Of a stretch of 64,000 nt of DNA, positions 25,956-43,807 are shown piece by piece. The notes below the pieces were generated by a model. The model was given only the letters and a program-made list of their open reading frames with translations. It searched no databases and had not been told where the DNA came from. Each line of letters begins with the position of its first letter. Positions within the stretch are counted from its first letter, which is position 1. Source of the stretch: Candidatus Poribacteria bacterium (GTDB taxonomy: Bacteria; Abyssobacteria; SURF-5); NCBI GenBank assembly GCA_016215705.1, contig JACRIR010000051.1:8851-72850 (forward strand). The letters are read 5' to 3'. Position numbers and translations under genes: made by a program.

Positions 25956-26579
25956 TTGCGAATGACGAGTGACCCCACCTTTGAACCTCTTGTCTCCGAA
26001 ACGCGCGAGCGCATACTGCGAGCCGCGATGGAGCTCTTCCGCAAACACGGATTCAATAACACCTCCATAGCTCAGATTCTGCAGCACGCAAAGATCACCA
26101 AGGGCGGATTCTACTTCCACTTCAAGAGCAAGGAAGAACTCGGATTCATAGTCCTCGAGCGCACCCGGGATTTCTGGATGGAGAATGTCATCGACGTAAT
26201 CGCCCAGGAAGCCGGCGTCAGGCGCCGCATAAGCCGCATGGTTGAGATTATGACCGAGATGTATCGCGGCGACATCTTTCACGGTTGCGCGCTGCTTGCC
26301 GTGCTGACCGCCGAGATGATGGAACATCCGACGGAATTCGCCGACCGCATAAGAAGCATAATAGCCGAATGGCAAAAGAGCATCATTGACATCCTTGAAC
26401 AGGGCAAGACCGAAGGCATCTTCCGCAAGGATATGGATTCAAGCGCCTTGGCTCTGATTCTGATCGGATGCTGCCAGGGCACGACCATGATGGGACACCT
26501 TGACCCCGAAAACGTCAACTACGACCTGCTTCTTCATGACCTCGAGAAATGGATTCTCGAGGGCTGCGCCCGACGCTGA
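25956..26579 (+). CDS. TetR/AcrR-family transcriptional regulator
   Basis: The product is about 205 aa. Residues 15-60 form the DNA-binding HTH (RILRAAMELFRKHGFNNTSIAQI, split over two helices, then ITKGGFYFHFKSKEEL). The rest is a helical ligand-binding domain with a Cys-containing segment FHGCALLAVLTAEM, as in TetR_C-type regulators. A TTG (25956) or ATG (25962) start is possible, with AGAGG just upstream. It is 180 bp upstream of the MarR gene and same-stranded, and may respond to an acyl-CoA or related ligand of the downstream cluster. That link is inference. Confidence 0.9.
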   Translation: MRMTSDPTFEPLVSETRERILRAAMELFRKHGFNNTSIAQILQHAKITKGGFYFHFKSKEELGFIVLERTRDFWMENVIDVIAQEAGVRRRISRMVEIMTEMYRGDIFHGCALLAVLTAEMMEHPTEFADRIRSIIAEWQKSIIDILEQGKTEGIFRKDMDSSALALILIGCCQGTTMMGHLDPENVNYDLLLHDLEKWILEGCARR

Positions 26580-26663: not shown

Positions 26664-26693
26664 TTGACAACGAATGTTCATGTCCTGTATAAT
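26664..26693 (+). promoter_or_regulatory. sigma70-type promoter of the marR/mutase operon
   Basis: TTGACA (26664-26669), an 18-bp spacer and TATAAT (26688-26693) are exact boxes. Just downstream lies TTCATCTTGTGAATAATTC with ...CCATGAA, an imperfect inverted repeat that could be a regulator operator. Confidence 0.72.
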
Positions 26694-26754
26694 TCATCTT
26701 GTGAATAATTCGGGCCATGAAATACATAATCTCTCTCACTACCTTTGAGCAACT

Positions 26755-27204
26755 ATGATAACGCAAGACGCAGCCACAAGTTTTTGGAAAGCGTTCGACA
26801 AACTCATTCGTTCCTTCTCCTCGATGAACAACGTTTCCGGAATCATTGTCCTCGGCAAGCCGGATATCATTGCGCTTGAGGCTGTCTCCAGGAATGAGGG
26901 GCTCATTATGAGCGAGATGGCGCGGCTTCTGGAGATCAGGTTCAATACCGCAACGGGAATTGCTGACCGACTTGTTGAAAAGAAACTGTTAAAGCGCGAA
27001 GGAAAACATGGGGACAGGCGAGTAATTCGACTGTGTTTGACTGAAAAGGGCAGGAAAACCGTTACGGCTTATCAAAGGCATAGGGGAAAGTTTTTCAGGG
27101 AAATGATGGTCGCTCTTACGAAAAGTGAACAGGAAGCTTTTGTTTCTGTCCTCGTGAAAATCGCCGGCGTAATGGACAAGAAAAAAGGGGAAATGGCGAG
27201 GTGA
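26755..27204 (+). CDS. MarR-family transcriptional regulator
   Basis: The 149-aa winged-helix protein has EGLIMSEMARLLEIRFNTATG as the recognition region, LVEKKLLKREG and the wing HGDRRVIRLCLTEKGR. It overlaps the downstream mutase (stop at 27202-27204, GTGATG). It is therefore almost certainly the local regulator of the acyl-CoA cluster, probably autoregulated at the promoter 60 bp upstream. Confidence 0.92.
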   Translation: MITQDAATSFWKAFDKLIRSFSSMNNVSGIIVLGKPDIIALEAVSRNEGLIMSEMARLLEIRFNTATGIADRLVEKKLLKREGKHGDRRVIRLCLTEKGRKTVTAYQRHRGKFFREMMVALTKSEQEAFVSVLVKIAGVMDKKKGEMAR

Positions 27205-27209
27205 TGTCG

Positions 27210-28877
27210 ATGTTCAGCGAAAAGTTTCTGGAAAGCCTCAAAGCGGAATACGGACGATGGGAGCAGAGTACTCTCAAGAAGATCCTTGATAAATATGGCA
27301 TGACTTCGGATTCTATTCCCCGGCAGACATATACGCCGCTCGACATTGAGACGACCGACTTCTCGAATTGTGTCGGATTTCCGGGCGAGTTCCCGTTCAC
27401 ACGCGGAATCTACCCCACCATGATAGTCGGAACAGGCATCGGAGGGCGGGCGTATTCCGGTTTCGGGAACCCGGAGGATACCCGCGACAGGCTCAGATTC
27501 TTGCTGTCGCAGGGACAGTTCGGCTTCAGCCTGGCCTTCGATCTGCCGACGCAGATAGGTCTCGATTCGGACCATCCGCTGGCGACCGGCGAGGTCGGCA
27601 GGGTAGGGGTGGCCCTCAGCTCACTGCAGGACATGGAGACTATTCTGTCGGCGTTCGACGGCGGCGCGCCTCTTGACAGAATTCGCTCCTCCTTTACGAC
27701 CAACGCCCAGGCGGTTGTCGTCCTGTCGATGTACATCGCGATGGCGGAGAAACTGGGCATTCCCCTGAACCAGCTTACCGGCACGATTCAAAACGATATC
27801 TTGAAGGAATACATCGCGCGGGGCACATATATCTTCCCGCCAACACCCTCGATGCGTCTTACAGGGGACATCTTCGAGTTTTGCTCCAGGAATATGCCGC
27901 GGTTCAACATGATAAGCATTTGCGGGTATCACATACGCGAGGCGGGCGCTACCGCCTCGCAGGAATTGGCATTCATGTTGTGCAACGCCATCGCTTATTC
28001 GGAAGTGGCGCTCAAACGCGGACTCGGCCCGGACGACTTCCTCCCGAGATTCAGCTTCCTGTTCAGCAGCCACAGCAATTTCTTCGAGGAGGTTGCCAAA
28101 TTCCGCGCTGCCCGCAGAATGTGGGCAAAGATAGCGCGTGACCGGCTGGGCGCAAAGAAGACTGATTCGATGCGTTTCCGCGTTGCCTCCGGTTACGCGG
28201 GTTCCACGTTCACGGCGCAGAAACCTCTTAATAATATCGCGCGCGGCACGCTCGAATGTTTTGCGTCAATCATAGGCGGGAACATGGGGAGCGCCTCGGC
28301 GCCGTATGATGAAGCATTGGGATTGCCGACCGAAGAGGCCACCATAGTGGCGCTTGATACGCCTCGCATAATCCACTTCGAGGCGCGCGGCGCCGACGTG
28401 ATAGACCCGCTCGGCGGCTCATACTATGTCGAACATCTGACCGACGCCCTGGAAGCGCGCGCCACCGATCTCATCAACAAGGTCGACGCCCTGGGCGGAG
28501 CAGTCGCTGCAATTGAAAAGGGATTCATTCAGGCGGAGGTTGAAAGCAGTTCGTACAAGATGCAAAAGGAAATTGAGGAAGGGATGCGCCGGATTGTCGG
28601 AGTGAACGAGTTTGTAGGTGAGACGCCGCCATTGCATCCGATGGAATTGGCGTCAGACATCGAGGATCGCAGAATCCGTGCGCTCAGGCAGTTGCGTGCT
28701 GAACGCAACAACGCAGCGGTCGAGAAATGTTTGAACCGGGTTCGCGTCGCAGCCGAAGGAACAGAAAATCTTATTCCGTCTGTCATGGATGCGGTCAAGG
28801 CTATGGCCACCAACGGCGAGATATGCGGCGTCCTAAGAGAAGTTTTCGGCGAAGCGCAACCGTTTACTTCGTACTAG
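27210..28877 (+). CDS. divergent B12-dependent acyl-CoA mutase, large subunit
   Basis: The 555-aa substrate-binding TIM-barrel subunit belongs to the methylmalonyl-CoA mutase family and lacks the B12 domain. The start at 27210 follows GAGGTGA by 5 bp; GTG 27201 and ATG 27204 are alternatives. Family blocks are [51 protein letters not shown] and GYHIREAG. The Tyr and Arg that bind the methylmalonyl carboxylate are kept (GRAYSGF with Tyr82, and PSMR). However, the usual WTMRQY segment reads GIGGRAY, and the near-invariant QSLHTNS.DEA block reads MGSASAPYDEA. The true substrate is therefore probably another (perhaps dicarboxylic or branched) acyl-CoA. A small subunit is encoded at 32692. Confidence 0.9.
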   Translation: MFSEKFLESLKAEYGRWEQSTLKKILDKYGMTSDSIPRQTYTPLDIETTDFSNCVGFPGEFPFTRGIYPTMIVGTGIGGRAYSGFGNPEDTRDRLRFLLSQGQFGFSLAFDLPTQIGLDSDHPLATGEVGRVGVALSSLQDMETILSAFDGGAPLDRIRSSFTTNAQAVVVLSMYIAMAEKLGIPLNQLTGTIQNDILKEYIARGTYIFPPTPSMRLTGDIFEFCSRNMPRFNMISICGYHIREAGATASQELAFMLCNAIAYSEVALKRGLGPDDFLPRFSFLFSSHSNFFEEVAKFRAARRMWAKIARDRLGAKKTDSMRFRVASGYAGSTFTAQKPLNNIARGTLECFASIIGGNMGSASAPYDEALGLPTEEATIVALDTPRIIHFEARGADVIDPLGGSYYVEHLTDALEARATDLINKVDALGGAVAAIEKGFIQAEVESSSYKMQKEIEEGMRRIVGVNEFVGETPPLHPMELASDIEDRRIRALRQLRAERNNAAVEKCLNRVRVAAEGTENLIPSVMDAVKAMATNGEICGVLREVFGEAQPFTSY

Positions 28878-28966
28878 TAGAGTGCTTCCTAAATAAGATG
28901 CATTGATTCGGCTACGGTCTCCCCCTTCGCCTTCTCAATGTACACCCTGTATCCCGGGAGAATATT

Positions 28967-29770
28967 ATGAACGACAACCACATGCTGCTTGAAAAAGACG
29001 GCTACGTCGCCACCATAACCATCAATCGACCCGATCAGCGCAACGCCATGCTGTCAATCATGTGGAAATGGCTCGGCGAAACGATGGATAAGCTAAGCGA
29101 AGACAACGACGTCAGGTGTGTTATCATCCGTGGCGCGGGCGACAAGGCGTTTGCGTCGGGAGCTGACATCTCAGAATTTGAGGTGTGGACCAGCCAGGAG
29201 AAAGCGCGGGAATATGGCGGCCGCATCGAATACGCCCTCCAGAGCATCGAGAAGCACAGAAACCCGGTGATTGCGATGATTCAGGGCTATGCCCTTGGCG
29301 CGGGCTGCGAGCTCGCGGTCGCCTGCGACCTCCGGATTCTCGCCGACGGCTCAAAAATCGGCATCCCGTCGGCAAAACTCGGCGTAATGCTGAATTACGA
29401 GAATTATCATAGAGTTGTCGACCTGGTAGGCATCTCGATTGCGCGAGAAATATTCTTCCTGGGCCATCCCCTTGATGCGCAGCGCGCGAAAGAAGTCGGA
29501 TTGGCCAATTTCGTTGTGCCCAAACCGGAACTGCAAACGTTCACTTGCGAGATCGCACGCGAGATTTCGGAAAATGCTCCGCTATCGGTGAGGGGAAGCA
29601 AGCGTGTTCTGCACGCATGCGCCGTGCACGGAATGCTTGATCGCGACCGCGACGCCGATGCGCTCGCGCAGCTCGATGACTTGAGCGCAGCTTGCTTCTT
29701 GAGCGAGGACGTGAAGGAGGGCGTAAGCGCCTTCTTCGGCCGCCGCAAGGCCGATTTCAAAGGGGAATGA
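28967..29770 (+). CDS. crotonase-family enzyme lacking the second catalytic Glu
   Basis: The 267-aa enoyl-CoA hydratase/isomerase-superfamily protein has the CoA/oxyanion motif FASGADISEF and GYALGAGCELAVACD, where Glu115 matches the first catalytic Glu. At the position of the second Glu of classical hydratase it reads IPSAKLGVMLNYENY (Ser135), and the usual GAGGTQR is absent. LGV.....  followed by VDLVG resembles crotonases that act as decarboxylases or other non-hydratase members, including methylmalonyl-CoA decarboxylase-like proteins. GGGAGA precedes the ATG. It lies 89 bp after the mutase and probably acts on its product or substrate. Simple hydratase activity is doubtful. Confidence 0.85.
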   Translation: MNDNHMLLEKDGYVATITINRPDQRNAMLSIMWKWLGETMDKLSEDNDVRCVIIRGAGDKAFASGADISEFEVWTSQEKAREYGGRIEYALQSIEKHRNPVIAMIQGYALGAGCELAVACDLRILADGSKIGIPSAKLGVMLNYENYHRVVDLVGISIAREIFFLGHPLDAQRAKEVGLANFVVPKPELQTFTCEIAREISENAPLSVRGSKRVLHACAVHGMLDRDRDADALAQLDDLSAACFLSEDVKEGVSAFFGRRKADFKGE

Positions 29771-29812
29771 ACCAGGTTCACGGTTTACAGCCTACAGTTT
29801 ACGGTTGAATCG
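29770..29812. repeat. degenerate GGTTCAC/GGTTTAC heptamer repeats, copy 2
   Basis: AGGTTCACGGTTTACAG, then CAGTTTACGGTTGAATC, in the gap after the crotonase gene. Confidence 0.55.
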
Positions 29813-29843
29813 AGGAGAAGCTGACAACTTTACCTTATTCCCT

Positions 29844-29902
29844 CGAAAGCGGGAATCCACGTTCGTGATGTCTCAGCGCACAAATCTGGATTCCTGCTTT
29901 CG
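29844..29902. repeat. inverted repeat CGAAAGCGGGAATCCA
   Basis: CGAAAGCGGGAATCCA (29844-29859) is mirrored at 29887-29902 with one mismatch. It forms a short mobile-looking palindromic element. Translated in the downstream frame it yields a spurious N-terminus (PRKREST...CFRGNDG). Confidence 0.75.
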
Positions 29903-29939
29903 CGGGAATGACGGTGAGGGTGTGGTAGGGAGATTACCG

Positions 29940-31268
29940 ATGAACATGACACGTGAACTCTGTGACGCAATTGAAAGGACTACTTTCGAGCAGATTCCGA
30001 CTGACGCCATTGCGGAAGCGAAGCTCTGCCTGCTCGACTGGCTGGGCGTAACGCTAGGCGGCGCCCATGAGCCGCTCACGAAGATTCTTATGGAGATTGG
30101 CGACCTCGTCGGGGGCGAGAAGCAGTCCAGCATTGTCGGCCATGCGCGCAAGACCTCGATTCTGAACGCGGCCTTGATTAACGGCTCCGCGTCGCATGCG
30201 CTCGATTTCGATGACGTACACTTCCAGATGATGGGTCATCCGACCGTGCCGGTCATGCCCGCGCTACTCTCATTGGCCGAAGTTCGAAAGAGCAGCGGGC
30301 GTGATGTTCTCACTGCATTTTTGCTCGGATTCGAGGCGGAGTGCAGAATCGGATCCTCAGTCTTCCCGTTTCATTACCAGCAAGGCTGGCATGCGACCTC
30401 GACAATCGGACGCTTCGGAGCAGCGGCCGCATGTTCAAAGTTGCTCGGCCTCGACGCGGCGCGCATGAGTTTCGGCCTTGGCGTGGCCGGCACACAAGCG
30501 GCCGGCCTCAAGCAGGTCTTCGGTACAATGTCCAAGCCGTTCCACGCCGGAAAAGCCGCGATGGATGGGCTTCTTGCGGCTTTGCTCGCCGAAAAAGGCT
30601 TCACTTGCTCCGAGGATATCATTGCAGGCGAGGGCGGTTTCTGCAAAGTGCTCTCGCCGGACGCGAATCCTGAATTGATCATGCAGGACTTTGGCAAGAC
30701 ATACGCCATCGGGAACGTTATGTTCAAGCGGCATGCCTCTTGTTTTGAGACGCATCCGACCATCGACGCGGCCCTCGATATTCGCAGTAAGGTGCGCGCG
30801 GACGATATCGCGGAAGTGCGAGTCTCCGCGGTTCCGGTCGCTCTCGAGATCGCCGGAAAAACTGAACCTAGCACCGGTCTCGAAGGCAAGTTCAGCCTTG
30901 CCTATTGCGCTGCGCTTGCACTCGTCGACGGCGAGACGGGTGAAGACCGTTTCTCGGATGAAAATGTTCTGAGCGATCAACTGGTCGCAATGCGCAAGAA
31001 GATAACAGTGACCCCTGACGAACAACTCGGCTTGACACAAGCGGAAATCACCGTGCGGATGCGCGACGGTCGCCAATTGAAGAGCAGCGCCGACACGCTC
31101 GAGTCCGGCTCAAACAAAGAAAAGCGAAAAGCCGACCTTGTTCGGAAGTTCCGCTCTTTCGCCGAACGGCTCCTTCCGCCAGGCAGGGCGGATGCCATAA
31201 TTAGATTTGTCGAGAACATGGAAGCGCAGAAGAACGTGGCAAAACTCTTAGCCCTCTGCCGTCCATGA
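29940..31268 (+). CDS. MmgE/PrpD family protein
   Basis: The 442-aa protein is in the 2-methylcitrate/cis-aconitate dehydratase, decarboxylase and epimerase superfamily. The ATG at 29940 follows GGGAGA; the frame extends to 29805 only through a repeat, so that extension is rejected. Family features are LLDWLGVTLGG, NGSASHALDFDDVH, HATSTIGRFGAAAA, GTMSKPFHAGKAAMDG and KRHASCFETHPTIDAA. Members act on tricarboxylates, itaconate precursors and iminodisuccinate. Here it sits between a crotonase and a CoA-transferase, which suggests a di- or tricarboxylic intermediate. The exact reaction cannot be told. Confidence 0.88.
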   Translation: MNMTRELCDAIERTTFEQIPTDAIAEAKLCLLDWLGVTLGGAHEPLTKILMEIGDLVGGEKQSSIVGHARKTSILNAALINGSASHALDFDDVHFQMMGHPTVPVMPALLSLAEVRKSSGRDVLTAFLLGFEAECRIGSSVFPFHYQQGWHATSTIGRFGAAAACSKLLGLDAARMSFGLGVAGTQAAGLKQVFGTMSKPFHAGKAAMDGLLAALLAEKGFTCSEDIIAGEGGFCKVLSPDANPELIMQDFGKTYAIGNVMFKRHASCFETHPTIDAALDIRSKVRADDIAEVRVSAVPVALEIAGKTEPSTGLEGKFSLAYCAALALVDGETGEDRFSDENVLSDQLVAMRKKITVTPDEQLGLTQAEITVRMRDGRQLKSSADTLESGSNKEKRKADLVRKFRSFAERLLPPGRADAIIRFVENMEAQKNVAKLLALCRP

Positions 31269-31292
31269 TATTGGACGGCGTGCTGTGGAGGC

Positions 31293-31335
31293 GCTTATTC
31301 GGGGACATCATGCCGCATGGTGTTGCCGAATGAGC
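31293..31335. repeat. GGGGACA/TGTCCCC palindrome, copy 3
   Basis: GCTTATTCGGGGACATCATG, CCG, then CATGGTGTTGCCGAATGAGC. The second arm carries a TT in place of CC. Confidence 0.72.
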
Positions 31336-31380
31336 GGCTGCGGCGCGGTCCCCGCTTAGCAACCAAACAAAGGAGCCAAA

Positions 31381-32574
31381 ATGCAGAAAATTCTCGAAGG
31401 CGTCAGGATACTCGACCTCTCACGCATGCTCGCGGGCCCATATGGCTCCATGCTTCTCGGAGACCTCGGCGCAGAAGTCATTAAAATCGAAGAACCCGGC
31501 AGCGGTGACCTCACCCGGACAACTTCCGCTCAGGCCGCTCTTCGGGGCATCAGCGCATACTTTCTGAGCATCAATCGAAGCAAGAAGAGCGTTACGCTGA
31601 ATATGAAGACCGAAAAAGGGCGCGCCATCTTCTACGAACTCGTCAAGAAGGCTGATGTTGTCTACGACAACTTCCGGCCGGATGCTCTCGAGAGGCTCGG
31701 ATGCACATATGAGATTCTTTCAAAACACAACCCCGGAATTATTTGCTGTTCGGTATCGGCATTCGGACACGACGGTCCCTATCGCGACCTGCCCGCATAC
31801 GATGTCATTCTTCAGGCAATCGGCGGCACAATGGGCCTTACAGGACCCGAAGGCGGCGACCCGGTTCTGATGGGAGTGCCGATGGGCGACCTTGGCGGCG
31901 GCATTTTCGGGGCGCTCGCGATATCAGCGGCGCTTTACAATCGTGAGAAAACCGGCTGCGGCCAGAAGCTGGATATCAGTCTGCTCGACAGCCAGATATC
32001 GTTGCTGGTCTACATGGCGCAAACTTACATAGCCAACGGACAGGTTCCTAAGCCCCGCGGCACAATGCACCCGCTGATCGCCCCTTTCCGTGCGTTCAAA
32101 ACAAGGGACGGCCACATTGCGGTGGTCGCTTTCCAGGATAAATTCTTTGAGAGCTTTTGCCGGATAATCGAACGCGAAGACCTCCTGACCGATGAACGGT
32201 TTGACAACTTGATTAATCGCGCTTTGAACAAGACTGAGTTGTATGCTATATTGGATACGATTTTCCCGAGAAAAACGACCGCTGAGTGGCTTGCGCCGTT
32301 GCGTGAAGCTCAAATTCCCTCGGGTCCCGTGAACGACATCAAGGATGCCTTGAATGATATCCAGGTGCGACACAGAAAGATGGTTGTCGAGATTGACCAC
32401 CCCGAAATCGGGCGCTACGAGGCTCTGGGGAATCCTATAAAATCGTCGGCGATGCACGATGGCGAATTCATGCCGCCGCCTGCGCTTGGCCAACATACGG
32501 ACGAAGTGCTCGGCGCGCTGGCCGGTCTTTCGGCCGATGAGATCAAGTCTTTGCGCAATGAAGGCGTGATCTGA
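31381..32574 (+). CDS. CaiB/BaiF family (type III) CoA-transferase
   Basis: The 397-aa enzyme moves CoA between carboxylic acids. Motifs are GVRILDLSRMLAGPYGSMLLGDLGAEVIKIE, split at turns, then NRSKKSVTLNMK. The catalytic Asp170 is in PMGDLGGGIFG, matching Asp169 of formyl-CoA transferase, and DISLLDSQ follows. AAAGGAGCCAAA provides a strong ribosome-binding site. In this family substrates include oxalate, carnitine, itaconate, mesaconate, citramalate and benzylsuccinate. Its position points to activation of the acid that the mutase rearranges. Confidence 0.93.
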   Translation: MQKILEGVRILDLSRMLAGPYGSMLLGDLGAEVIKIEEPGSGDLTRTTSAQAALRGISAYFLSINRSKKSVTLNMKTEKGRAIFYELVKKADVVYDNFRPDALERLGCTYEILSKHNPGIICCSVSAFGHDGPYRDLPAYDVILQAIGGTMGLTGPEGGDPVLMGVPMGDLGGGIFGALAISAALYNREKTGCGQKLDISLLDSQISLLVYMAQTYIANGQVPKPRGTMHPLIAPFRAFKTRDGHIAVVAFQDKFFESFCRIIEREDLLTDERFDNLINRALNKTELYAILDTIFPRKTTAEWLAPLREAQIPSGPVNDIKDALNDIQVRHRKMVVEIDHPEIGRYEALGNPIKSSAMHDGEFMPPPALGQHTDEVLGALAGLSADEIKSLRNEGVI

Positions 32575-32608
32575 TATCCCCTAGGTCGGGGACATCACGC
32601 CGATCTCT

Positions 32609-32639
32609 TAGCACACTTTTTCATAAATACGGTGACGAA
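32609..32639 (+). repeat. TTTCATAAATACGGTGACG element, copy 1
   Basis: A 31-bp unit with core TTTCATAAATACGGTGACG (32619-32637). The core recurs exactly, in opposite orientation, at 37152-37170, and with two changes at 59060-59078. A half GGGGACA palindrome lies just upstream at 32585-32604. Confidence 0.7.
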
Positions 32640-32691
32640 TAAACTCTAAGCTCTGAACCCCAAACCAGATATCTTGGGAGGACATGAGGGT

Positions 32692-33090
32692 ATGCCTGAA
32701 AAGAAAATACGAGTGTTGGTTGCCAAGCCCGGTCTTGACGGCCACGACCGCGGCGCAAAAGTCATTGCGCGCGCGCTCCGCGACGCCGGAATGGAAGTCA
32801 TTTACACTGGTCTTCGTCAAACCCCTGAGCAGATCGTTTCTGCGGCTTTGCAGGAGGACGTGGACGTGATAGGTCTGAGCGTCCTTTCGGGCGCTCATAT
32901 GGGACTGACTCAGAAAATCATAGCCAGGCTCAAAGAGCAAAATGCCGGCGACAAAATGGTGCTGGTGGGGGGAACCATCCTCGCAAAAGATATCCCTAAG
33001 TTGAAAGATATGGGTGTTGCCGAAGTCTTTCCGACGGGCAGTCGCCTCGAAGAACCGATCAAATTTATCAAAGAACGACTCGGAAACTGA
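32692..33090 (+). CDS. B12-binding small subunit of acyl-CoA mutase
   Basis: The 132-aa cobalamin-binding domain starts [14 protein letters not shown], after GGGAGGA at 32675-32681; a six-codon longer frame is rejected. The B12 motif is D16-x-H18-x2-G21 in GLDGHDRG, with His18 as the lower cobalt ligand. SVLSGAH and VLVGGTI complete it. It is a stand-alone small subunit, as in 2-hydroxyisobutyryl-CoA and some methylmalonyl-CoA mutases. Its partner is probably the divergent large subunit at 27210, and it may also serve the canonical large subunit at 42143, which has no small subunit beside it. Confidence 0.93.
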
Positions 33091-33487: not shown

Positions 33488-34564
33488 ATGCCTGAAATAA
33501 GAAAACTTGATATCGACACCCCCGCTCTTCTCATTGACCTCGACAGAATGGAACATAACATCAAGAAGATGGCAAGTTTCTTCGATATGCAGTTCTCCAA
33601 CTTGAGGCCGCACACAAAGACCCATAAATGTCCCGTCCTGGCGCACAAACAGCTTCAGGCAGGCGCTCAAGGGATAACGTGCGCAAAATTGGGCGAAGCA
33701 GAGGTAATGGCCGCCGCAGGCATACGGGATATCCTTATCGCCAACCAGATAGTGGGCCCCGACAAAATCGCGCGTCTGGCAAATCTCGCCCGACATTGCG
33801 ACATCATGGTGGCCGTCGAATCTCGCCACAATGTCGCAGACCTCTCCATGGCGGCGAGGCATGCGGGCTCCACTATTCGCATTCTCATCGAGGTCGATGT
33901 CGGAATGCACCGGTGCGGCGTGAAGAGCCCGGAAGAAGCGGTCTCGCTTGCTCAAAAGATTCTGGAAAGCCCGGGGCTGCAATTCGAGGGCATCATGGGT
34001 TACGAGGGCCACGCGGTAATGATTCCGGAACTCGACGACCGGCGACAGGCCTGTCTCAAGTCGATGCAAGTCCTGATAGGCGCCAGAGATGCCCTGCTGA
34101 AGAGCGGAATCGAAGTGAAGATTGTAAGCGCAGGCGGAACCGGAACGTACAACATCGCAGGTTCGTACCCGGGAGTAACGGAAATCCAGGCGGGCTCCTA
34201 CATACTCATGGATGCAAAATATCGAAGCGTGCTGCAGGATTTTGAATCGGCCCTCACAATCCTTTCTACGGTCACGAGTCGGCCCGACAAGGAAACAGCG
34301 ATCCTCGACGCGGGCATGAAGGCGATGACGTTTGAATTCGGGATGCCGGAGCTTGTCGGAGTCGCCGGCGCCGCCGTCTCTTTCCTCTCCGAGGAACACG
34401 GCCACCTGTATCTTGAGGATGCGGACCCCCAGGTGGGTGAAAAAGTCGAGCTCATTCCCAGTCATTGCTGCACAACCATCAATCTCCATGACCGCTTTTA
34501 CGCCGTTCGCGGAGATCGTCTGGAGGCCGTCTGGTCTGTTGCCGGCCGCGGCAAATTCGCGTAG
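33488..34564 (+). CDS. DSD1-family PLP-dependent enzyme (D-threonine/3-hydroxyaspartate aldolase-like)
   Basis: The 358-aa protein has the alanine-racemase-like fold III. The PLP Lys is in LRPHTKTHKCP near residue 42. GITCAKLGEAEVMAAAG, EVDVGMHRCG and SAGGTGTY follow. The C-terminal beta domain has metal-site residues SHCCTTINLHD. Family members cleave or dehydrate D-3-hydroxy amino acids (D-threonine, D-serine, 3-hydroxyaspartate, giving glycine, pyruvate, glyoxylate and similar). AGGTG precedes the ATG. It lies 400 bp beyond the mutase small subunit across a repeat-filled gap, so membership in the same pathway is possible but not certain. Confidence 0.9.
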   Translation: MPEIRKLDIDTPALLIDLDRMEHNIKKMASFFDMQFSNLRPHTKTHKCPVLAHKQLQAGAQGITCAKLGEAEVMAAAGIRDILIANQIVGPDKIARLANLARHCDIMVAVESRHNVADLSMAARHAGSTIRILIEVDVGMHRCGVKSPEEAVSLAQKILESPGLQFEGIMGYEGHAVMIPELDDRRQACLKSMQVLIGARDALLKSGIEVKIVSAGGTGTYNIAGSYPGVTEIQAGSYILMDAKYRSVLQDFESALTILSTVTSRPDKETAILDAGMKAMTFEFGMPELVGVAGAAVSFLSEEHGHLYLEDADPQVGEKVELIPSHCCTTINLHDRFYAVRGDRLEAVWSVAGRGKFA

Positions 34565-34862: not shown

Positions 34863-36773
34863 CTATGAGTTCTTGCTCTTCAACACACGGTAGTCCCCGA
34901 CTCTCGCCGTCAACCCAATCTTGTCAAAGTACTCAAGCAGCGGGACCGCATGCTTGCGGCTTACGCCAAGGACGGTCTTCAGGTCGCCAACGCCAAGCTT
35001 GTCGGCCTTTTGGAAATGCTCTTTGATTCTGCGTATCGCGGGCTCGAGGAAATCCTTGTGGTAGGCCATCGTGGGACTGATCTTTATGATCATCCCCTCC
35101 TCCAGCAGCAACGAAATCATCTGCTTTGCGCTTTTGGAATCACCAATCTGTTCTTCAACCTGGCTGAATGTCGGCGGCGAGTAACCGGCATCTCGAAAGA
35201 TTGATTCCATTCTGTGTCTTGCCGCTTTCTGGGCTTCGGTTATCTGAGCTTTTCTGCCTTTGAATCTAATCCCTTCGGCGGCAGCCTCGATCACATCAGA
35301 TTGGATGAGTTCAATCATGATTCTGTCAAAAATGTGCGCATCGATCTCGCCCAACCGGCTCCGCAATTCCTCCCTTGGCATGAACAGGCGGTGCGGCTGA
35401 GACGCAAAGAATCCTTTCATCTCCTCAGTGGCGCGTTTTCTTATCTGCTCGAAGCGATCCCGAAAGACGATAAGCATGTCATCGCCGCCGGCGAACGATA
35501 GGATGGTTCCCTTCTTGATGTGCGCGTCCACCACCGCGCGCACCTTTTCTATTGGCTCCCCCACGCGTGAAGCAAGGGCGCGTAGCCTTTCGCCCGTATC
35601 CTTTTGGGCAAGGAACGCGAGAGCAACTTCTCCCGAGGTGGCTTTCTCAAGCTTCTTGAGACAATCTGACCTATCCGTCTCTTTTCGTCTCAATTTGGCC
35701 GGCCCCACGTCGATAACAACCCCTCCGCCAATCGTGAATTCAGGCGATTCTCCCCTGAGCACAAAACGGTCGCCCCGAAACGCGCACAGCGCATGCGCTG
35801 GATGAATCTGCACGTAAGCCTCTTCGCCCGGGTTGAGCTTAAGCGTATCGATGAGATTCATGCGCGCAAGCCGCTGGCTTGTAGCGAGATAGAGCTTGAC
35901 ACTCGAGGTCCTTGGAATCGCTCGAGGCGCAGAAGCCAACAACTGAATCCTCGCGTCGAGAATGCTCGTTGCTTCTGCCGTACCCTGTCTCACAAGGGTA
36001 TCGCCGCGCTCGATTTGCTGAACGGAAATATTGGCCAGGTTCATCGCAGCCCGCATCCCGGCGGAAATCCTCTCCTGCTTGACGCCATGGCTCTGCAATT
36101 GACGCGCTCGTGTCGATAATCCGGAAGGGAGAACAACCACAGGCTCATCCTCGGAAAGATGGCCCGAGAACACGGTTCCCGTGACCACCGTTCCAAAACC
36201 CTTCATGGTGAAAACGCGATCTATGGGGAATCGGAACAGCCCCTCTTCGTCCTTTTGCCGCTGTTCCTCCACGGCCTGCCTGATCAATTCCCTGATTCGA
36301 TCAAGTCCTTCACCTGTCTTCGCCGACACTCTTTCAATGGGCGCCCCCTCGAGGAATGTGCCTTTCACAATCTCCTCGATTTCCGCCTCGACGATCGCCA
36401 CCATTTCGCTGTCGGCCGCGTCGATCTTATTAATCGCTACGATTCCCCGAGGAATAGCAAGGAGTTTCATGATCTCGAGGTGCTCGCGCGTTTGTGGCAT
36501 CACACTCTCCGTGGCGTCCACCACGAGGATGACAATATCCATGCCTGCCGCCCCTGCAAGCATGTTCTTTACGAATTTTTCGTGTCCGGGAACGTCCACG
36601 AACGCAACGCGAGTGCCGTCAGGAAGATCGAAATGCGCAAAACCGAGATCTATTGTCATCCCGCGCTCTTGTTCCTCCTTGAGGCGGTCCGGATCAATGC
36701 CCGTGAGAGCTTTTACCAGCGCGGATTTTCCGTGATCTATGTGGCCGGCAGTGCCGACAATGAGGTGTTTCAT
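34863..36773 (-). CDS. selB: selenocysteine-specific translation elongation factor
   Basis: The 636-aa GTPase delivers Sec-tRNA to UGA codons. The start [17 protein letters not shown] is chosen over an 8-codon extension, with AAGGGGA upstream. G motifs are [20 protein letters not shown] and NKID. Domains II and III follow ([17 protein letters not shown]). The C-terminal winged-helix array (about 370-636) binds the SECIS hairpin. Length is typical. selA lies upstream on the same strand, separated by about 400 bp of repeats. No selenoprotein gene or tRNA-Sec was recognised in the window. Confidence 0.95.
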
Positions 36774-36841
36774 TGGGAACCGTATCCCCTTCACCAAAAG
36801 GAATGCTGATGCTCCCCCTGTTGAATTTGTCCAACAATCGT

Positions 36842-36871
36842 TGTAGGGGCACGGCGCGCCGTGCCCCTACA
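36842..36871. repeat. perfect 30-bp palindrome TGTAGGGGCACGGCG
   Basis: TGTAGGGGCACGGCG is followed immediately by its exact reverse complement, giving a 15-bp stem with no spacer. Related TGTAGGGGC hairpins occur at 37106-37135 and 44418-44457, with degenerate ones near 51073 and 59096. Confidence 0.9.
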
Positions 36872-36939
36872 GGCGATACTGCCTCGAAATAGCAATTGCA
36901 GAGCAGTCTCTCCTAACTTTTTGTCAAAAGGCGGTTCTT

Positions 36940-37014
36940 CTTCCCCCCTTTGAAAAAGGACCATCTTTCTTCACCCCCCTTTGATAAAGGGGGAAGGGGG
37001 GATTTTACAGTCCG
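36940..37014. repeat. CCCCCTTTGA/AAAAGGGGG inverted tracts, copy 1
   Basis: CCCCCCTTTGAAAAAGG is followed by CCCCCCTTTGATAAAGGGGG and AGGGGGGATTTT. A similar set occurs at 45276-45394. The rest of the 36774-37177 gap holds no gene, only repeats. Confidence 0.65.
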
Positions 37015-37105
37015 GGTGTGTGTGCCGCGTTTACCGGTGGAGCACTACCACACGTTCACATACGAAGCACTAAGTAGGTCGCTTCATAAATCCTGTATCG
37101 TATTT

Positions 37106-37135
37106 TGTAGGGGCGACTCGGTGAGCCGCCCTCGC
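37106..37135 (+). repeat. TGTAGGGGC-family hairpin, imperfect
   Basis: TGTAGGGGCGACTCG then GTGAGCCGCCCTCGC; partial relative of the perfect palindrome at 36842. Confidence 0.5.
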
Positions 37136-37150
37136 TAAATCCAGGCGCCT

Positions 37151-37181
37151 ACGTCACCGTATTTATGAAAACATGCGCTAA
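37151..37181 (-). repeat. TTTCATAAATACGGTGACG element, copy 2
   Basis: The exact reverse complement of the 19-bp core at 32619 lies at 37152-37170. The element runs into the last codon of selA. Confidence 0.75.
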
Positions 37182-38587
37182 GCCCCGGCGGCAATCTCCC
37201 GAAACGCTGCCACTATCTCAGACAATTCATCCGCCTGCACCGTTCTGAAATCGAGGCAAAAAGAATCGTTTCGGATTATCCCTATGATGGGAGGCGAATT
37301 TCGCCTCAAGCGGCTCGCAATCTGCTCGGGTGAGAGCTTCTCCGGCTTGATGATTAGCAACTTTGTGGGGAGCGTCTGCCCCGGACACGAACCGCCGCCA
37401 ATCTGCGATTCTCCGTCAGCGATATCGGCGCGCAGGATCCTTCGCAACTGACTACCCATCTCATCAAGAACTCTTCCTGCCATCTTGCCGATATCATCCG
37501 GCGTGCGAGAGATTATTCCAAGCGTCGGTATCTCTTTTTCCGGCGCGCGCGATGATTGCAGAATCTGGAAAAGCACGCCGAGCGCAGAAAGCGTCATCTT
37601 GTCGACACGCAGGGCCCGCATCAGAGGGTTCTTGCGAATTGCCCGCACGTATTCAGCCTTTCCCACGACTATGCCCGCCTGCGGGCCACCCAACAGCTTG
37701 TCGCCACTGAATGTTACGATATCGGCGCCGGTCTTGACGCTGGCCTGGGGCGTTGGCTCACCGCTGATTCCGAACTTCGTCATATCCACGATTGCGCCGC
37801 TGCCGAGGTCTTCCATCACGGGAACGCCGTGTTTTCGGCCGAGTTCAACCAACTCTGACAGTGGCGTCTGATTCGTGAATCCGACGATGCGGTAATTGCT
37901 CGGGTGAACTTTGAGCAGTAGAGCAGTTTCAGGCGAGAGCGCTCGCTCATAGTCATATATATATGTTCGGTTTGTGGCGCCTACCTCCACGAGTTTCGCG
38001 CCGCTCTTGGCCATTACCTCCGGTATCCGGAACGAGCCGCCTATTTCCACAAGCTCACCACGTGACACGATAACCTCGCGCCCCTTGGCAAATGTGTCCA
38101 GCGCAAGCATGACCGCTGCCGCATTGTTGTTTACGACGGTCGCAGCCTCGGCCCCCGTAACCGAGCAGATGACCGGCTCGATGACAGAATCGCGGTGGCC
38201 TCGCTCGCCTGTCGAAAGGTCAATCTCGAGGTTGCAGTAGCGAGCTGCCACGTCCGCCATTGCTGCGATAACCTTGGGCCCGACGAGAGAACGGCCCAAA
38301 TTTGTATGAATCACCACCCCCGTGCCGTTTATCACTCGGCGCAGAGCAGGGGAGAGGCGAGCCGATGCTCTGCCCACCACTTCATCCTCGATGGCGCCCA
38401 ACTCAAGGGGCGGTGAGTTCTTACGAGCTTTCTTTTGGCCGGACCGGATTTCCTCGAGCACCTCGCGAACGACCTCCGTCACAAACGCATCTGTCAGCCC
38501 CTGAAGGAGACCCATCACTTTGGGAGTCTGCTTCACCTTCTCCACGCTGGGAATGCGGCTCAGATTTGTCCGGGATTCTTGTGCCAT
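37178..38587 (-). CDS. selA: L-seryl-tRNA(Sec) selenium transferase
   Basis: The 469-aa PLP enzyme converts Ser-tRNA(Sec) to Sec-tRNA(Sec). The start MAQESRTNLSRIPSVEKV matches the family N-terminus; a 31-codon extension rich in Cys is rejected. The PLP Lys297 is in FSGDKLLGGPQAG. Other blocks are INGTGVVIHTNLGRSL, NNNAAAVML and SRGELVEIGGSFRIP. It is the first of the selA-selB pair. Two copies of CCAATTGTCAA lie 40 bp apart upstream (38600-38610 and 38640-38650). The outer one supplies a TTGACA box for a weak promoter. Confidence 0.95.
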   Translation of the reverse strand: MAQESRTNLSRIPSVEKVKQTPKVMGLLQGLTDAFVTEVVREVLEEIRSGQKKARKNSPPLELGAIEDEVVGRASARLSPALRRVINGTGVVIHTNLGRSLVGPKVIAAMADVAARYCNLEIDLSTGERGHRDSVIEPVICSVTGAEAATVVNNNAAAVMLALDTFAKGREVIVSRGELVEIGGSFRIPEVMAKSGAKLVEVGATNRTYIYDYERALSPETALLLKVHPSNYRIVGFTNQTPLSELVELGRKHGVPVMEDLGSGAIVDMTKFGISGEPTPQASVKTGADIVTFSGDKLLGGPQAGIVVGKAEYVRAIRKNPLMRALRVDKMTLSALGVLFQILQSSRAPEKEIPTLGIISRTPDDIGKMAGRVLDEMGSQLRRILRADIADGESQIGGGSCPGQTLPTKLLIIKPEKLSPEQIASRLRRNSPPIIGIIRNDSFCLDFRTVQADELSEIVAAFREIAAGA

Positions 38588-38826
38588 AAGTAGTTGTATC
38601 CAATTGTCAAAATCCCTGCAATTCTTACACAATACGCAACCAATTGTCAACCGCCCCTTGAGGTTCGGTGCTTGCCGCATTCAGCGATGCCTGCCGGGCG
38701 CATATACGGGCGCATATAGGCGCAAATACTTGAACAGTTGCTCATTCTTGCTAACATCGGCGAAGCATGACATATTAGTTAAAGTAAGAAGCAACCAGAC
38801 CAAAACTATGGAAAGGAGAGACTACA

Positions 38827-39900: not shown

Positions 39901-41451
39901 ATGTCGACTTTCGAGCAGATCGATAAACTTAAGAAACTCCAGGAGCAGGCGCTCATGGGGGGTGGTGAGGAACGCATCAAGGAGCAACATGAAAAGGGTA
40001 AACTCACTGCCCGCGAAAGAATTGATATGCTCTTAGATAAGGGTTCTTTCACAGAGTTGGGCGCATTTGTTACACATAAATGCGCACACTTCGGAATGGA
40101 GAAAAGAAAATATCTCGGCGACGGAATCGTTACCGGCTATGGCGCTATTGCCGGACGGCAGGTGTATGTCTTTGCGCATGATTTCACCGTCGTCGGAGGC
40201 ACTCTCGGCCACGCATTTGCAGAAAAAACGTGCAGACTAATGGAATTGGCGATGCGCAACGGCGCACCCGTCATCGGCCTGAACGACTCCGGTGGAGCGC
40301 GCATCCAGGAAGGCGTCGAAAGCCTTGCCGGATATGCAGACATATTCTTGCGCAATACGCTGGCCTCGGGCGTCATCCCGCAAATATCGGTCATTCTGGG
40401 TCCGTGCGCGGGCGGCTCGGTGTATTCTCCCGCGCTGACGGATTTCATCTTCATGGTCGACAACACGAGTTACATGTTCATAACCGGTCCCGAAGTGATC
40501 AAAGCGACCACCTACGAGGAAGTCACCAAGGAAGACCTTGGGGGGTCGCATACCCATTCGACCCGGAGCGGTGTTTGCCATTTCGCGATGCCCGATGAGA
40601 CCAGTTGCTTTGACGCCATACGCGAGCTCTTGTCATACGTTCCTCAGAACAACATCGAGGAACCTCCGTTCGTGCCGACTGCCGATCCGCCTGACCGCGC
40701 GGACGAATCGTTGAACTCAATCATTCCTGACAATCCAAAGGAATCATATGACATGTACAAAGTCATTCGCTCGGTTGCGGATGACGGCCGTTTCTTGGAA
40801 GTCCATGCCGGGTTCGCGCGCAACATAATCGTGGGTTTCGCTCGACTTGGAGGACGGTCCGTCGGCATTGTGGCAAATCAGCCGATGGCGCTGGCCGGCT
40901 GCCTCGACATAAATGCGTCCGTTAAAGCAGCCCGGTTCGTACGGTTCTGCGATGCGTTCAACATCCCGATAGTTACCTTCGAGGATGTGCCGGGGTTCCT
41001 GCCGGGCACAGCCCAGGAATTCGGCGGGATAATCGTTCATGGCGCGAAACTCTTGTACGCTTACTGCGAAGCTACCGTGCCCCGTGTTACCGTTATCACC
41101 CGCAAGGCCTATGGCGGCGCATACTGCGTGATGTCGTCTAAACATGTGCGGTGCGACATCAATTATGCATGGCCCTCAGCCGAGATCGCCGTAATGGGTC
41201 CTGACGGAGCCATCAATATCGTCTTTCGGAAAGAACTCGCCGAGGCAAAAGACCGCGAAGAGGCCCGCAAAAAGCTGCTCGAGGACTATAAGGAGAAGTT
41301 TGCGAGTCCGTACATCGCCGCCGAACTCGGATATGTGGACGAAGTAATCGAACCCGGGATGACGCGGGTGAAGCTAATAAGAGCGCTTGAGTCGCTCCGG
41401 AATAAACGCGATACAAATCCACCCAAGAAACACGGGAATATTCCCCTGTGA
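39901..41451 (+). CDS. acyl-CoA carboxyltransferase (propionyl-CoA carboxylase beta / methylmalonyl-CoA decarboxylase alpha type)
   Basis: The 516-aa protein has both crotonase-like halves of the biotin-dependent carboxyltransferase. N-terminal: [35 protein letters not shown] and [19 protein letters not shown]-terminal: [35 protein letters not shown] and [14 protein letters not shown]. It transfers CO2 between biotin and propionyl-CoA or a similar acyl-CoA. A biotin carrier and a canonical mutase follow. No biotin carboxylase lies nearby, so it may run as a decarboxylase or transcarboxylase, or use a carboxylase encoded elsewhere. Confidence 0.93.
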
Positions 41452-41528
41452 CTTTCGACCTTCGACCGTGCGATGACATGGGTTTTGGCTGCGGCTACAC
41501 CGCGTCGTGAGATGTGAGGCCTTTCGTT

Positions 41529-42002
41529 GTGAAGAAACTGGAGTTGCTGGTCAACGGGAAATCGTATAATGTGGAAGTAATCCGGACCGGCGGCGAAGTC
41601 GCTCGTGTGATCGTAAATGGCTCGCCATACGACGTCGTCATCAAGGACCTGCCGGAAGGGCATTTCCCGCAGGTGAGGACCACGGCCGAGAAGGCTGCGC
41701 AAGCCGCTGCTGTCGGTTTTCCACCCGCGCAGATGAAACATGAGTTCGCGGCCGCCGAAGGCGTTACCGTCGTAAAGTCGCCTCTCCCCGGCCTCATCCT
41801 CGACGTCAAGACGGGCGTAGGAGACTCAGTAAATGCCGGTGACACACTTGTCGTCATCGAAACCATGAAAATGGAGAATAATGTCGTATCGCCTGTTTCG
41901 GGTGTGGTCAAAGAAATCAAAGTCTCGAAAGACCAAACCGTGAACGAAGGGGTTCCTCTCATAGTCATCGGTCCCCTTTCCCCCTTTATTGTGAACGACT
42001 GA
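41529..42002 (+). CDS. biotin carboxyl carrier protein/subunit
   Basis: The product is 157 aa. The GTG at 41529 is chosen because GAGG lies 9 bp upstream; GTG 41514 is possible. An N-terminal beta segment (KKLELLVNGKSYNVEV) is followed by a linker and the biotinyl domain with biotin Lys114 in ETMKMEN. This arrangement matches gamma-type carrier subunits of methylmalonyl-CoA or oxaloacetate decarboxylases and of propionyl-CoA carboxylase. It sits between its carboxyltransferase and the mutase. Confidence 0.92.
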   Translation: MKKLELLVNGKSYNVEVIRTGGEVARVIVNGSPYDVVIKDLPEGHFPQVRTTAEKAAQAAAVGFPPAQMKHEFAAAEGVTVVKSPLPGLILDVKTGVGDSVNAGDTLVVIETMKMENNVVSPVSGVVKEIKVSKDQTVNEGVPLIVIGPLSPFIVND

Positions 42003-42142
42003 CCACGCCTTTGGTGTGATTAACTGTGAAAGGAAGGCTCGTTGCGCTATGGTCATGCGGGTGGAGAGTAGCAATCTCTTCATCTTTGCTTTTCCCCTTT
42101 CGCCTTTGACCTTTCGCCTTTCGCCTTCCTTGGGAGACGACT

Positions 42143-43807
42143 ATGAACATGGAAGAGCTTGGAAAACTACACAAGCAGTGGGAAGAAAAAACTCTGGGCA
42201 AGGTTTTGAGCAAGTTCCCCGAGCGATCAAACAAGTTCCAAACCGACTCCGGCATCGAACTTCGCCGCGTGTACTCACCCCTCGATCTTGACGACGTCGA
42301 CTACCAGAGGGAACTGGCCTTTCCGGGCGAGTATCCCTATACGCGCGGAATTCAGCCGACCATGTATCGCGGCCGCCTTTGGACAATGCGCCAATATGCC
42401 GGCTTTGCCAACGCGCGGGAATCGAATCGTCGTTACCGCTTCCTGCTTGAGCACGGACAAACGGGCCTGAGCATCGCGTTCGATCTGCCCACTCAGATAG
42501 GCTACGATTCCGATCATCCCCTGGCCGATGGGGAAGTCGGCAAGGTCGGCGTCGTCATCGATTCTTTGAGAGACGTCGAAATCCTTTTCGACCAGATTCC
42601 TCTCGATAAGGTGACGACCTCGATGACAATCAATTCGACTGCCGCGATCTTGCTTGCCATGTATGTGGCGCTTGCGAAGAAACGGGGGACCCCGCTCGAC
42701 AAACTCGGTGGCACGATACAGAACGATATCCTCAAGGAATACGTTGCTCGCGGGACACACAGGTTTCCGATAAATCCCTCGATGCGCCTAGTAACCGACA
42801 CTTTTAAATACTGCACGAAGAATCTGCCCCGTTGGAACATGATCAGCATCAGCGGGTATCACATACGCGAGGCGGGCTCCACGGCAGTCCAGGAAGTAGC
42901 CTTCACCCTTGCGAATGCGATTGCCTACGTGCAAGCCGCAGTTGACGCCGGCCTCGATGTCGACGACTTTGCCGGACGCCTTTCGTTCTTCTTCAATTCG
43001 CATAACAACTTTTTTGAAGAAATTGCGAAATTCCGGGCCGCGAGGCGACTGTGGGCTCGCATTGTGAGAGACCGTTTCCATGCGAAGAAACCCGGCTCGG
43101 AAATGCTTCGCTTTCATACGCAGACCGCCGGATGCACGCTCACCGTTCAGCAATATGAGAACAACGTCGTGCGCGTGGCTTTCCAGGCGTTGGCAGCCGT
43201 GCTGGGCGGAACGCAATCGCTTCATACCAACTCGAGGGATGAGGCTCTGTGCCTGCCGACCGAGGAATCCGTCCGGTTGGCGCTGCGCACCCAGCAGCTG
43301 ATTGGTTACGAGAGCGGTGTCGCCGATGTCGTCGACCCGCTGGGCGGCTCCTACTTCATTGAGCGTCTTACATCCGAGATCGAAAAGGCCGCAGCCGACT
43401 ACATTCAAAAGATCGACTCGATGGGCGGTTCGATCTCTGCGATCAAAAACGCCTATCTGCAAAAGGAAATCCAGGATAGTTCATACAGGTATCAGCAAGC
43501 AATCGAGAGCGGCGAAAAAGTAATTGTGGGAGTCAATAAGTTCCAGACCGAAGAGCCGCCTCCGGAGAAACTGCTCGAGGTCGATCCGAAAACACAGGCC
43601 GAGCAAATCGAAGGGCTGAAAAAAGTGCGCGCCGAGCGAGACAACGCTTCCGCGCAAGCATCGCTCGAGCGCCTGCGGGAAGCCGCATCGGGCGACGTTA
43701 ACCTCATGGAGCCCATAATCGAGTGCGTCGAGAGATATGTAACCCTTGGTGAGATATGCTCAACGCTGGCGCAGGTTTTTGGAGAAGCGGCCGAAACCAA
43801 TCCGTAG
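42143..43807 (+). CDS. mcmA: methylmalonyl-CoA mutase large subunit, canonical
   Basis: The 554-aa substrate-binding subunit lacks a B12 domain. All family landmarks are present: [14 protein letters not shown] (Arg78, Thr81, Arg83 and Tyr85, equivalent to P. shermanii Arg82, Thr85, Arg87 and Tyr89), [28 protein letters not shown] and [12 protein letters not shown]. It interconverts methylmalonyl-CoA and succinyl-CoA. GGGAGA precedes the ATG. It follows the carboxyltransferase and carrier and precedes a gamma-carbonic anhydrase, forming a propionate module. The matching B12 subunit is not adjacent; the one at 32692 is the nearest. Confidence 0.95.

Follow-up and report, generated by a model that had tools for sequence, protein, structure and literature searches.

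We analyzed a 64,000-nucleotide window (G000:C228:8851-72850) of a 5.47 Mb metagenome-assembled genome (MAG) with 92% completeness, and within it a gene cluster built around MutL-A, a divergent adenosylcobalamin (AdoCbl)-dependent acyl-CoA mutase large subunit. The closest named locus is in Ca. Abyssubacteria SURF_17 (G002), which comes from the anoxic deep subsurface (PMC6121073). A preliminary description had placed six genes on one strand, from a MarR-family regulator to a B12-binding small subunit. All six are present on the plus strand (26755-33090), and a TetR-family regulator upstream and an aldolase-like gene downstream are also members of the conserved block:

25956-26579, plus strand: TetR-family regulator (PF00440), conserved, heading the cluster in each of the three Abyssubacteria genomes
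26755-27204, plus strand: MarR-family regulator (PF01047), 67% identical to its SURF_17 orthologue
27201-28877, plus strand: MutL-A, divergent AdoCbl-dependent acyl-CoA mutase large subunit, 558 amino acids (PF01642, 591 bits)
28967-29770, plus strand: crotonase, probable substituted-malonyl-CoA decarboxylase (PF00378)
29940-31268, plus strand: MmgE/PrpD-family protein, probable 2-substituted-succinate epimerase (PF03972/PF19305)
31381-32574, plus strand: CaiB/BaiF (Frc-type) family III CoA-transferase (PF02515, 428 bits)
32692-33090, plus strand: MutS, stand-alone B12-binding small subunit (TIGR00640, 161 bits)
33488-34564, plus strand: pyridoxal phosphate-dependent D-threonine-aldolase/3-hydroxy-D-aspartate-aldolase-like protein (PF01168 and PF14031)

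The 3' end of the MarR gene and the start of MutL-A share 4 bases. The true starts of MmgE/PrpD and MutS are probably the ATG at 29940 (instead of the TTG at 29805) and the ATG at 32692, because codons further upstream sit in non-coding-looking sequence. A repeat-like insert (GGATTCCTGCTTTCGCGGGAATGAC; 29805-29939), found in one copy in the window, separates the crotonase gene from MmgE/PrpD; in the relatives the spacing is shorter or the genes overlap. The window yielded no cobalamin riboswitch or other RNA at Rfam gathering scores. The TetR regulator is 79% (G002) and 67% (G001, a third genus) identical to the orthologues in the same place. The aldolase-like protein, whose top solved-structure match is D-threonine aldolase (260 bits), is encoded by the last gene of the block, in the same position in G001 and G002.

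In SURF_17 the order is TetR-MarR-MutL-A-crotonase-MmgE/PrpD-CaiB-SIR2-MutL-B-MutS-aldolase. MutL-B (L104 6037-7746), another large subunit, shares 45% identity with MutL-A and has Cys at position 243 of methylmalonyl-CoA mutase (MCM); a single small subunit thus stands in this cluster for two large subunits. The G001 order is TetR-crotonase-MmgE/PrpD-CaiB-SIR2-MutS-aldolase, and the locus has neither a large subunit nor MarR. That the six genes should be neighbors elsewhere was therefore borne out in one other genome only, SURF_17, which has the complete order; with the core in three genera and the large subunit in two, the core is more stably retained than the gene for the mutase. A sirtuin gene (SIR2) lies inside the cluster in two genera (L104 7743-8585; L143 6706-7515) and is absent from that of the window; speculatively, a sirtuin would be fitting in a pathway whose acyl-CoAs are reactive. 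MutL-A of the window and of SURF_17 are 82% identical, with a ratio of nonsynonymous to synonymous substitution rates (dN/dS) of 0.066; values for the same pair of genomes are 0.05-0.08 for the other cluster genes and 0.046 for the standard MCM. MutL-A is under strong purifying selection. Since SURF_17 repeats the gene order and the dN/dS of MutL-A is ~0.07, the cluster is not a chance arrangement. No MutL-A orthologue with >56% identity other than that of SURF_17 was found in the genome contigs collection or in a set of 386 genomes.

MutL-A and MutS have the domains of the mutase superfamily, with the PF01642 barrel at 591 bits in MutL-A and the PF02310 B12 domain at 91 bits in MutS. The fold is intact, judging from an AlphaFold2 model of MutL-A (predicted local distance difference test score 84, lower at residues 76-78) that overlays 1req at 1.7 Å. 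Active-site residues were compared in an alignment of 119 mutases and references, numbered as in MCM. Tyr89, Arg207, and His244, the established binding residues of MCM for the second carboxylate and for the thioester, are retained in MutL-A, and a carboxylate-bearing CoA ester is therefore expected. The residue pattern of isobutyryl-CoA mutase (ICM), with Phe89 and Gln207 in place of Tyr and Arg, is ruled out for MutL-A. The 2-hydroxyisobutyryl-CoA mutase (HCM) HcmAB resembles the system in its stand-alone large and small subunits and is the top PDB match of MutL-A (40% identity), but HCM has Ile89 and Gln207 where MutL-A keeps Tyr and Arg, which rules out this pattern too. Because the HCM-defining residues are absent, 2-hydroxyisobutyryl-CoA, a substrate option raised in the preliminary description, is disfavored.

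Other parts of the active site are changed. Nearly all aligned mutases start the stretch at MCM 78-92 with M-Y-R-G-R; in MutL-A of both genomes it reads MIVG[TA]GIGGRAYSG[FY]. The MCM motifs MYxxRxWTxRQYAGF and HxQT are not found in MutL-A, which has MIVGTGIGGRAYSGF and A-x-G-Y instead. MutL-A deviates at 15 of the 104 columns with ≥95% conservation, with the same changes in both genomes, whereas the median over all sequences is 1. The substitutions W84I, T85G, Q88A, H328A, Q330G, and S362G are mostly from large to small residues, and some of the altered residues are conserved even in HCM and ICM. Presumably they line the CoA or adenosine channel, and the large-to-small changes may be read as a wider channel. 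The specificity-determining region of MutL-A appears, from this alignment, unlike those of the MCM, HCM, and ICM proteins compared.

Phylogeny bears out the description of the mutase as divergent. In trees and approximately unbiased (AU) tests (LG+F+G4, trait columns removed), grouping of MutL-A with the characterized MCMs (human, Propionibacterium, E. coli, and Paracoccus) was rejected (AU p 0.033), as was a sister relationship to the standard MCM of the window (AU p 0.017). The first careful tree grouped MutL-A with mutases of G001 (C47) and of an unrelated MAG, G033 (support 95/99), and MutL-B with G033 and proteobacterial mutases (support 98/97). Constrained searches that kept clades together gave better trees, and the deep placement of MutL-A and MutL-B in the first tree is tentative. 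The C47 locus (L109 4940-9892) encodes a possible MutL-A relative and, along with it, a separate B12 small subunit, a GntR regulator, and a radical-SAM/PDZ protein; G001, which holds it, is the Abyssubacteria genome that lacks MutL-A.

The nearest solved structures to the MmgE/PrpD protein are iminodisuccinate (IDS) epimerase and B. subtilis 'IRG1', which has been argued not to be a cis-aconitate decarboxylase (PMC12290011). In this family, where one member is an (S)-(R)-methylsuccinate isomerase, a succinate backbone is common to all known substrates and a two-base Tyr/His set has been named (PMC12290011). The epimerase residues H85, D88, H99, Y145, H150, and K198 (IDS numbering) are aligned in the window's protein; K266 aligns at K-R, with the adjacent Lys conserved. 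Relatives of the protein occur in methylsuccinate/itaconate-type clusters. Two other identities were rejected: the protein misses the NCBIfam equivalog cut-offs for 2-methylcitrate dehydratase PrpD (48/575 and 36/458 bits), and it has the epimerase Tyr (in HYQQGWH), which cis-aconitate decarboxylase, with its one-base active site, lacks at the aligned position. By these residues and relatives, it is a probable epimerase of a succinate-type acid, e.g., a 2-substituted succinate.

The crotonase was said to lack the second catalytic Glu, and it does: the first Glu is kept (GAGCEL), and Ala stands at the second position (PSAKLG). In the crotonase tree it falls, apart from the GxPE hydratases, in a clade of seven sequences (support 97/96) with ScpB/YgfG, the methylmalonyl-CoA decarboxylase of E. 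coli, and with PAAKLG crotonases linked to CaiB. It scores below the NCBIfam PRK11423 equivalog cut-off (164/257 bits) and has Ala and Leu at the positions aligned to ScpB His66 and Tyr140, which we take to be marker residues of methylmalonyl-CoA decarboxylase. A substituted-malonyl-CoA decarboxylase is the probable assignment. The CaiB protein has PF02515 and the catalytic Asp of family III (GVPMGDL, aligned to the SUGCT Asp), and its nearest characterized relatives are SUGCT and the formyl/oxalate and succinyl-CoA:mesaconate transferases, which places it nearest to transferases that use succinyl-CoA. MutS keeps DxHxxG (GLDGHDRG), with GGTI replacing the usual GGGIIP, and forms a clade of its own with the G001 and G002 copies (support 100/98; 87-90% identity over three genera). 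A role as the general MCM small subunit of the genome was rejected in view of this separate GGTI clade and of a canonical small subunit present in all three genera.

The gene content, conservation, catalytic residues, and family placement described above were observed directly. From them we infer each reaction, the step order, and the substrate of the following scheme, which we favor with slightly less than even confidence: the cluster would encode the B12-dependent, non-oxidative conversion of a 2-substituted succinate, either methylsuccinate or a bulkier alkyl- or arylsuccinate. MmgE/PrpD would interconvert the stereoisomers of the free acid, and CaiB would load CoA onto the right isomer, taking it from succinyl-CoA or from the acyl-CoA that the route yields. 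MutL-A/MutS with AdoCbl would then move the CoA-carboxyl group to give a substituted malonyl-CoA, from which the crotonase would remove CO2, leaving an acyl-CoA for ordinary beta-oxidation. For methylsuccinate, the sequence would be methylsuccinyl-CoA to ethylmalonyl-CoA to butyryl-CoA. Such a scheme would use no redox cofactor, and CoA could be recycled as in the E. coli Sbm cycle.

The preliminary description is thus partly supported. Its proposal that an acid is activated with CoA and its carbon skeleton rearranged fits the family chemistry; the epimerase and decarboxylase roles were not part of it. Its separation of the route from the standard propionate pathway is likewise supported. The biotin carboxyltransferase next to MCM that marks the standard propionyl-CoA to succinyl-CoA set lies outside the mutase cluster, at 39901-43807, ~13 kb from MutL-A, where a propionyl-CoA carboxylase carboxyltransferase, a biotin carrier, and a canonical MCM large subunit are encoded.

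By analogy, the steps have precedents in methylsuccinate isomerase (PMC12290011), IaaL with IaaGH (PMC8360864), and ScpB. In anaerobic indoleacetate degradation by Aromatoleum aromaticum, IaaL, a family III CoA-transferase, acts on a substituted succinate, the B12 mutase IaaGH yields a substituted malonyl-CoA, and CO2 is lost with IaaF (PMC8360864). The sequence of CoA-transferase, B12 mutase, and CO2 loss is common to both systems, but IaaF is an oxidizing acyl-CoA dehydrogenase, in whose place the window has a crotonase, and the window adds an MmgE/PrpD epimerase and lacks indole-specific genes. The ich-mcd-mmgE-ict-ccl clusters of Pseudomonas and Cupriavidus (PMC12290011) share an MmgE/PrpD epimerase and a CoA-transferase acting on methylsuccinate; they have a dehydrogenase, a hydratase, and a lyase where the window has a B12 mutase and a decarboxylase. 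The E. coli Sbm operon (scpA-argK-scpB-scpC) likewise combines a mutase, a decarboxylase-type crotonase of the same clade, and a CoA-transferase, but its MCM is a fused single chain, it lacks MmgE/PrpD, and a MeaB-type GTPase lies inside it. Its CoA-transferase belongs to another family than CaiB. A literature search on this gene set returned separate precedents only. The cluster is real, conserved, and coherent, and it is a variation on the known theme of mutase plus CoA-transferase; the steps individually resemble known ones, and their combination and the remodeled MutL-A active site appear undescribed.

The active-site change was followed into other genomes. [AG] at 328 with [GV] at 330 occurs in 9 of the 134 Tyr/Arg-type mutases examined. 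A CaiB or crotonase homologue lies within 1.5 kb of all nine, compared with 6 of the 125 others, and the Fisher p of 1.7e-10 overstates the link because the rows are not independent, four being one proteobacterial orthologue group and two MutL-A itself. G033, a MAG of 2.5 Mb in which there are 19 mutase and 20 CaiB matches (L144, L145, and L176-L190), was chosen for its mutase and MmgE/PrpD matches, independently of CaiB or crotonase neighbors. Its two full-length mutases with altered 328/330 are those that adjoin a crotonase (L176) and CaiB (L177); a truncated third mutase (L190), with Pro at 243, also adjoins CaiB. Many G033 mutases have unusual residues at 89, 207, 243, and 244, and other substrates may be meant. 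Plasmids from Diaphorobacter, Paraburkholderia, Marinobacter, and Sulfitobacter carry a fixed cassette of crotonase-MutL-MutS-CaiB-MeaB (L166 5141-10014; L170 7141-12128; L171 7213-11999; L172 7095-12110), with transporters alongside. In the mutase of this alpha-, beta-, and gammaproteobacterial cassette, MCM position 243 is Ala, and G-V-C stands at 328/330/331. The cassette has four of the six components in common with the window, and its 328/330 change is of the same type, but its mutase is only ~41% identical to MutL-A, it has no MmgE/PrpD inside, its crotonase is of another clade, and it has a dedicated MeaB and tripartite ATP-independent periplasmic (TRAP), tripartite tricarboxylate (TTT), and ATP-binding cassette (ABC) transporters. 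A search of the literature library found no description of this five-gene cassette.

It is possible, if rather short of probable, that these mutases form a separate class, which would keep Tyr89/Arg207 with 328/330/331 and the channel rebuilt for bulky 2-substituted succinyl-CoA/malonyl-CoA pairs. They would combine with family III transferases and crotonases of the decarboxylase type, in some cases also with MmgE/PrpD epimerases, into a modular, undescribed route for substituted dicarboxylic acids that spans Abyssubacteria, the lineage of G033, and three proteobacterial classes. A single clade of all 328/330-altered mutases was not rejected (AU p 0.449). Two independent origins of the change, suggested by the first careful tree, were undercut by the better constrained trees, and we claim neither count.

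Several observations weigh against the proposed route. The G001 locus has no mutase large subunit, though the remainder, small subunit included, is retained; the link between mutase and core comes from two genomes and from partial neighborhoods in other lineages, and that the mutase is accessory to the core is one of our main doubts. The ~170-base repeat-like gap between crotonase and MmgE/PrpD makes a single transcript uncertain. A full MeaB/ArgK chaperone was not found in the MAG itself, which has three mutase large subunits; MeaB is present in both relatives (G001 and G002), and its absence here possibly reflects incompleteness of the MAG. The MmgE/PrpD protein is just 35-39% identical to proteins of methylsuccinate-type clusters, ScpB is a long branch in the crotonase tree, and among PDB entries the crotonase matches a hydratase best (163 bits, against 114 for the decarboxylase). 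As IaaG and ethylmalonyl-CoA mutase sequences were outside the mutase comparison, newness of MutL-A relative to these is not claimed.

One alternative is two adjoining units, in which the core operon (crotonase, MmgE/PrpD, CaiB, SIR2, small subunit, and aldolase) handles a C4-C6 dicarboxylate alone, whereas the MarR-MutL-A pair was inserted, is regulated separately, and supplies a mutase for a different task. The G001 core without MutL-A or MarR, the pair-like MarR/MutL-A overlap, and CaiB next to a PAAKLG crotonase, with or without MmgE/PrpD and with no mutase, in Octadecabacter and a comamonad all fit it. We nevertheless consider it unlikely, since the small subunit lies within the core in all three genera and differs from the other MCM-type small subunit of the genome, and unrelated mutases with the same active-site change likewise adjoin CaiB or crotonases.

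We give still less credence to MutL-A as an MCM isoform in an Sbm-like cycle, which would convert succinate to propionyl-CoA with CaiB recycling CoA and MmgE/PrpD serving propionate metabolism. The E. coli Sbm mutase does adjoin a decarboxylase crotonase that groups with that of the window, and Tyr89, Arg207, and His244 are retained. MutL-A is, however, excluded from both the characterized MCMs and the window's own (AU p 0.033 and 0.017), it is altered at residues conserved even in HCM and ICM, a standard MCM set lies nearby, and MmgE/PrpD, at 48 bits, falls far short of the 575 bits required of a 2-methylcitrate dehydratase.

An origin of the substrates as alkyl- or arylsuccinates from fumarate addition to hydrocarbons in the same cell is very improbable. 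CoA transfer, rearrangement, and decarboxylation do parallel the proposed alkylsuccinate route, and the genome encodes eight pyruvate formate-lyase (PFL)-like glycyl radical enzymes. Two of the eight (L247 1608-4139 and L248 4232-6721) are confident sulfopropanediol dehydratases that pass the NCBIfam (2S)-3-sulfopropanediol dehydratase cut-off, which suggests organosulfonate use, and for the three compared with solved structures, dehydratase- or PFL2-type enzymes match better than benzyl-/alkylsuccinate synthases. The enzymes compared thus look like dehydratases, although in a MAG of this completeness absence is no proof. With no fumarate-adding enzyme recognized among them, the probable source of the acid is external or some other part of metabolism.

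An itaconate-type metabolism is equally improbable. In it, MmgE/PrpD would make or process itaconate, CaiB would form itaconyl-CoA for hydration by the crotonase, and MutL-A would be a variant of MCM resisting itaconyl-CoA inactivation. MmgE/PrpD relatives include cis-aconitate decarboxylases and are found in itaconate clusters, and MutL-A is changed at 328 and 330, which are presumably near the adenosine pocket, but the epimerase Tyr is present, the cluster has no CoA-ester lyase or MaoC hydratase, and hydratases have a second Glu that the crotonase does not.

Next to the cluster, on the minus strand (34863-38680), lie SelB- and SelA-like genes, read from the sequence without models, as selenocysteine machinery.

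If the proposed non-oxidative route is correct, it would be a redox-free entry of branched dicarboxylic acids (methylsuccinate and alkyl-/arylsuccinates) into beta-oxidation in deep-subsurface anaerobes. In the deep subsurface, such acids can derive from hydrocarbons, lipids, and aromatics. To our knowledge, very few activities of B12 acyl-CoA mutases have been described, and PF01642 genes are mostly annotated as MCM by default. If the residue signature and gene neighborhood do mark another substrate class, many mis-annotated genes could be read anew.

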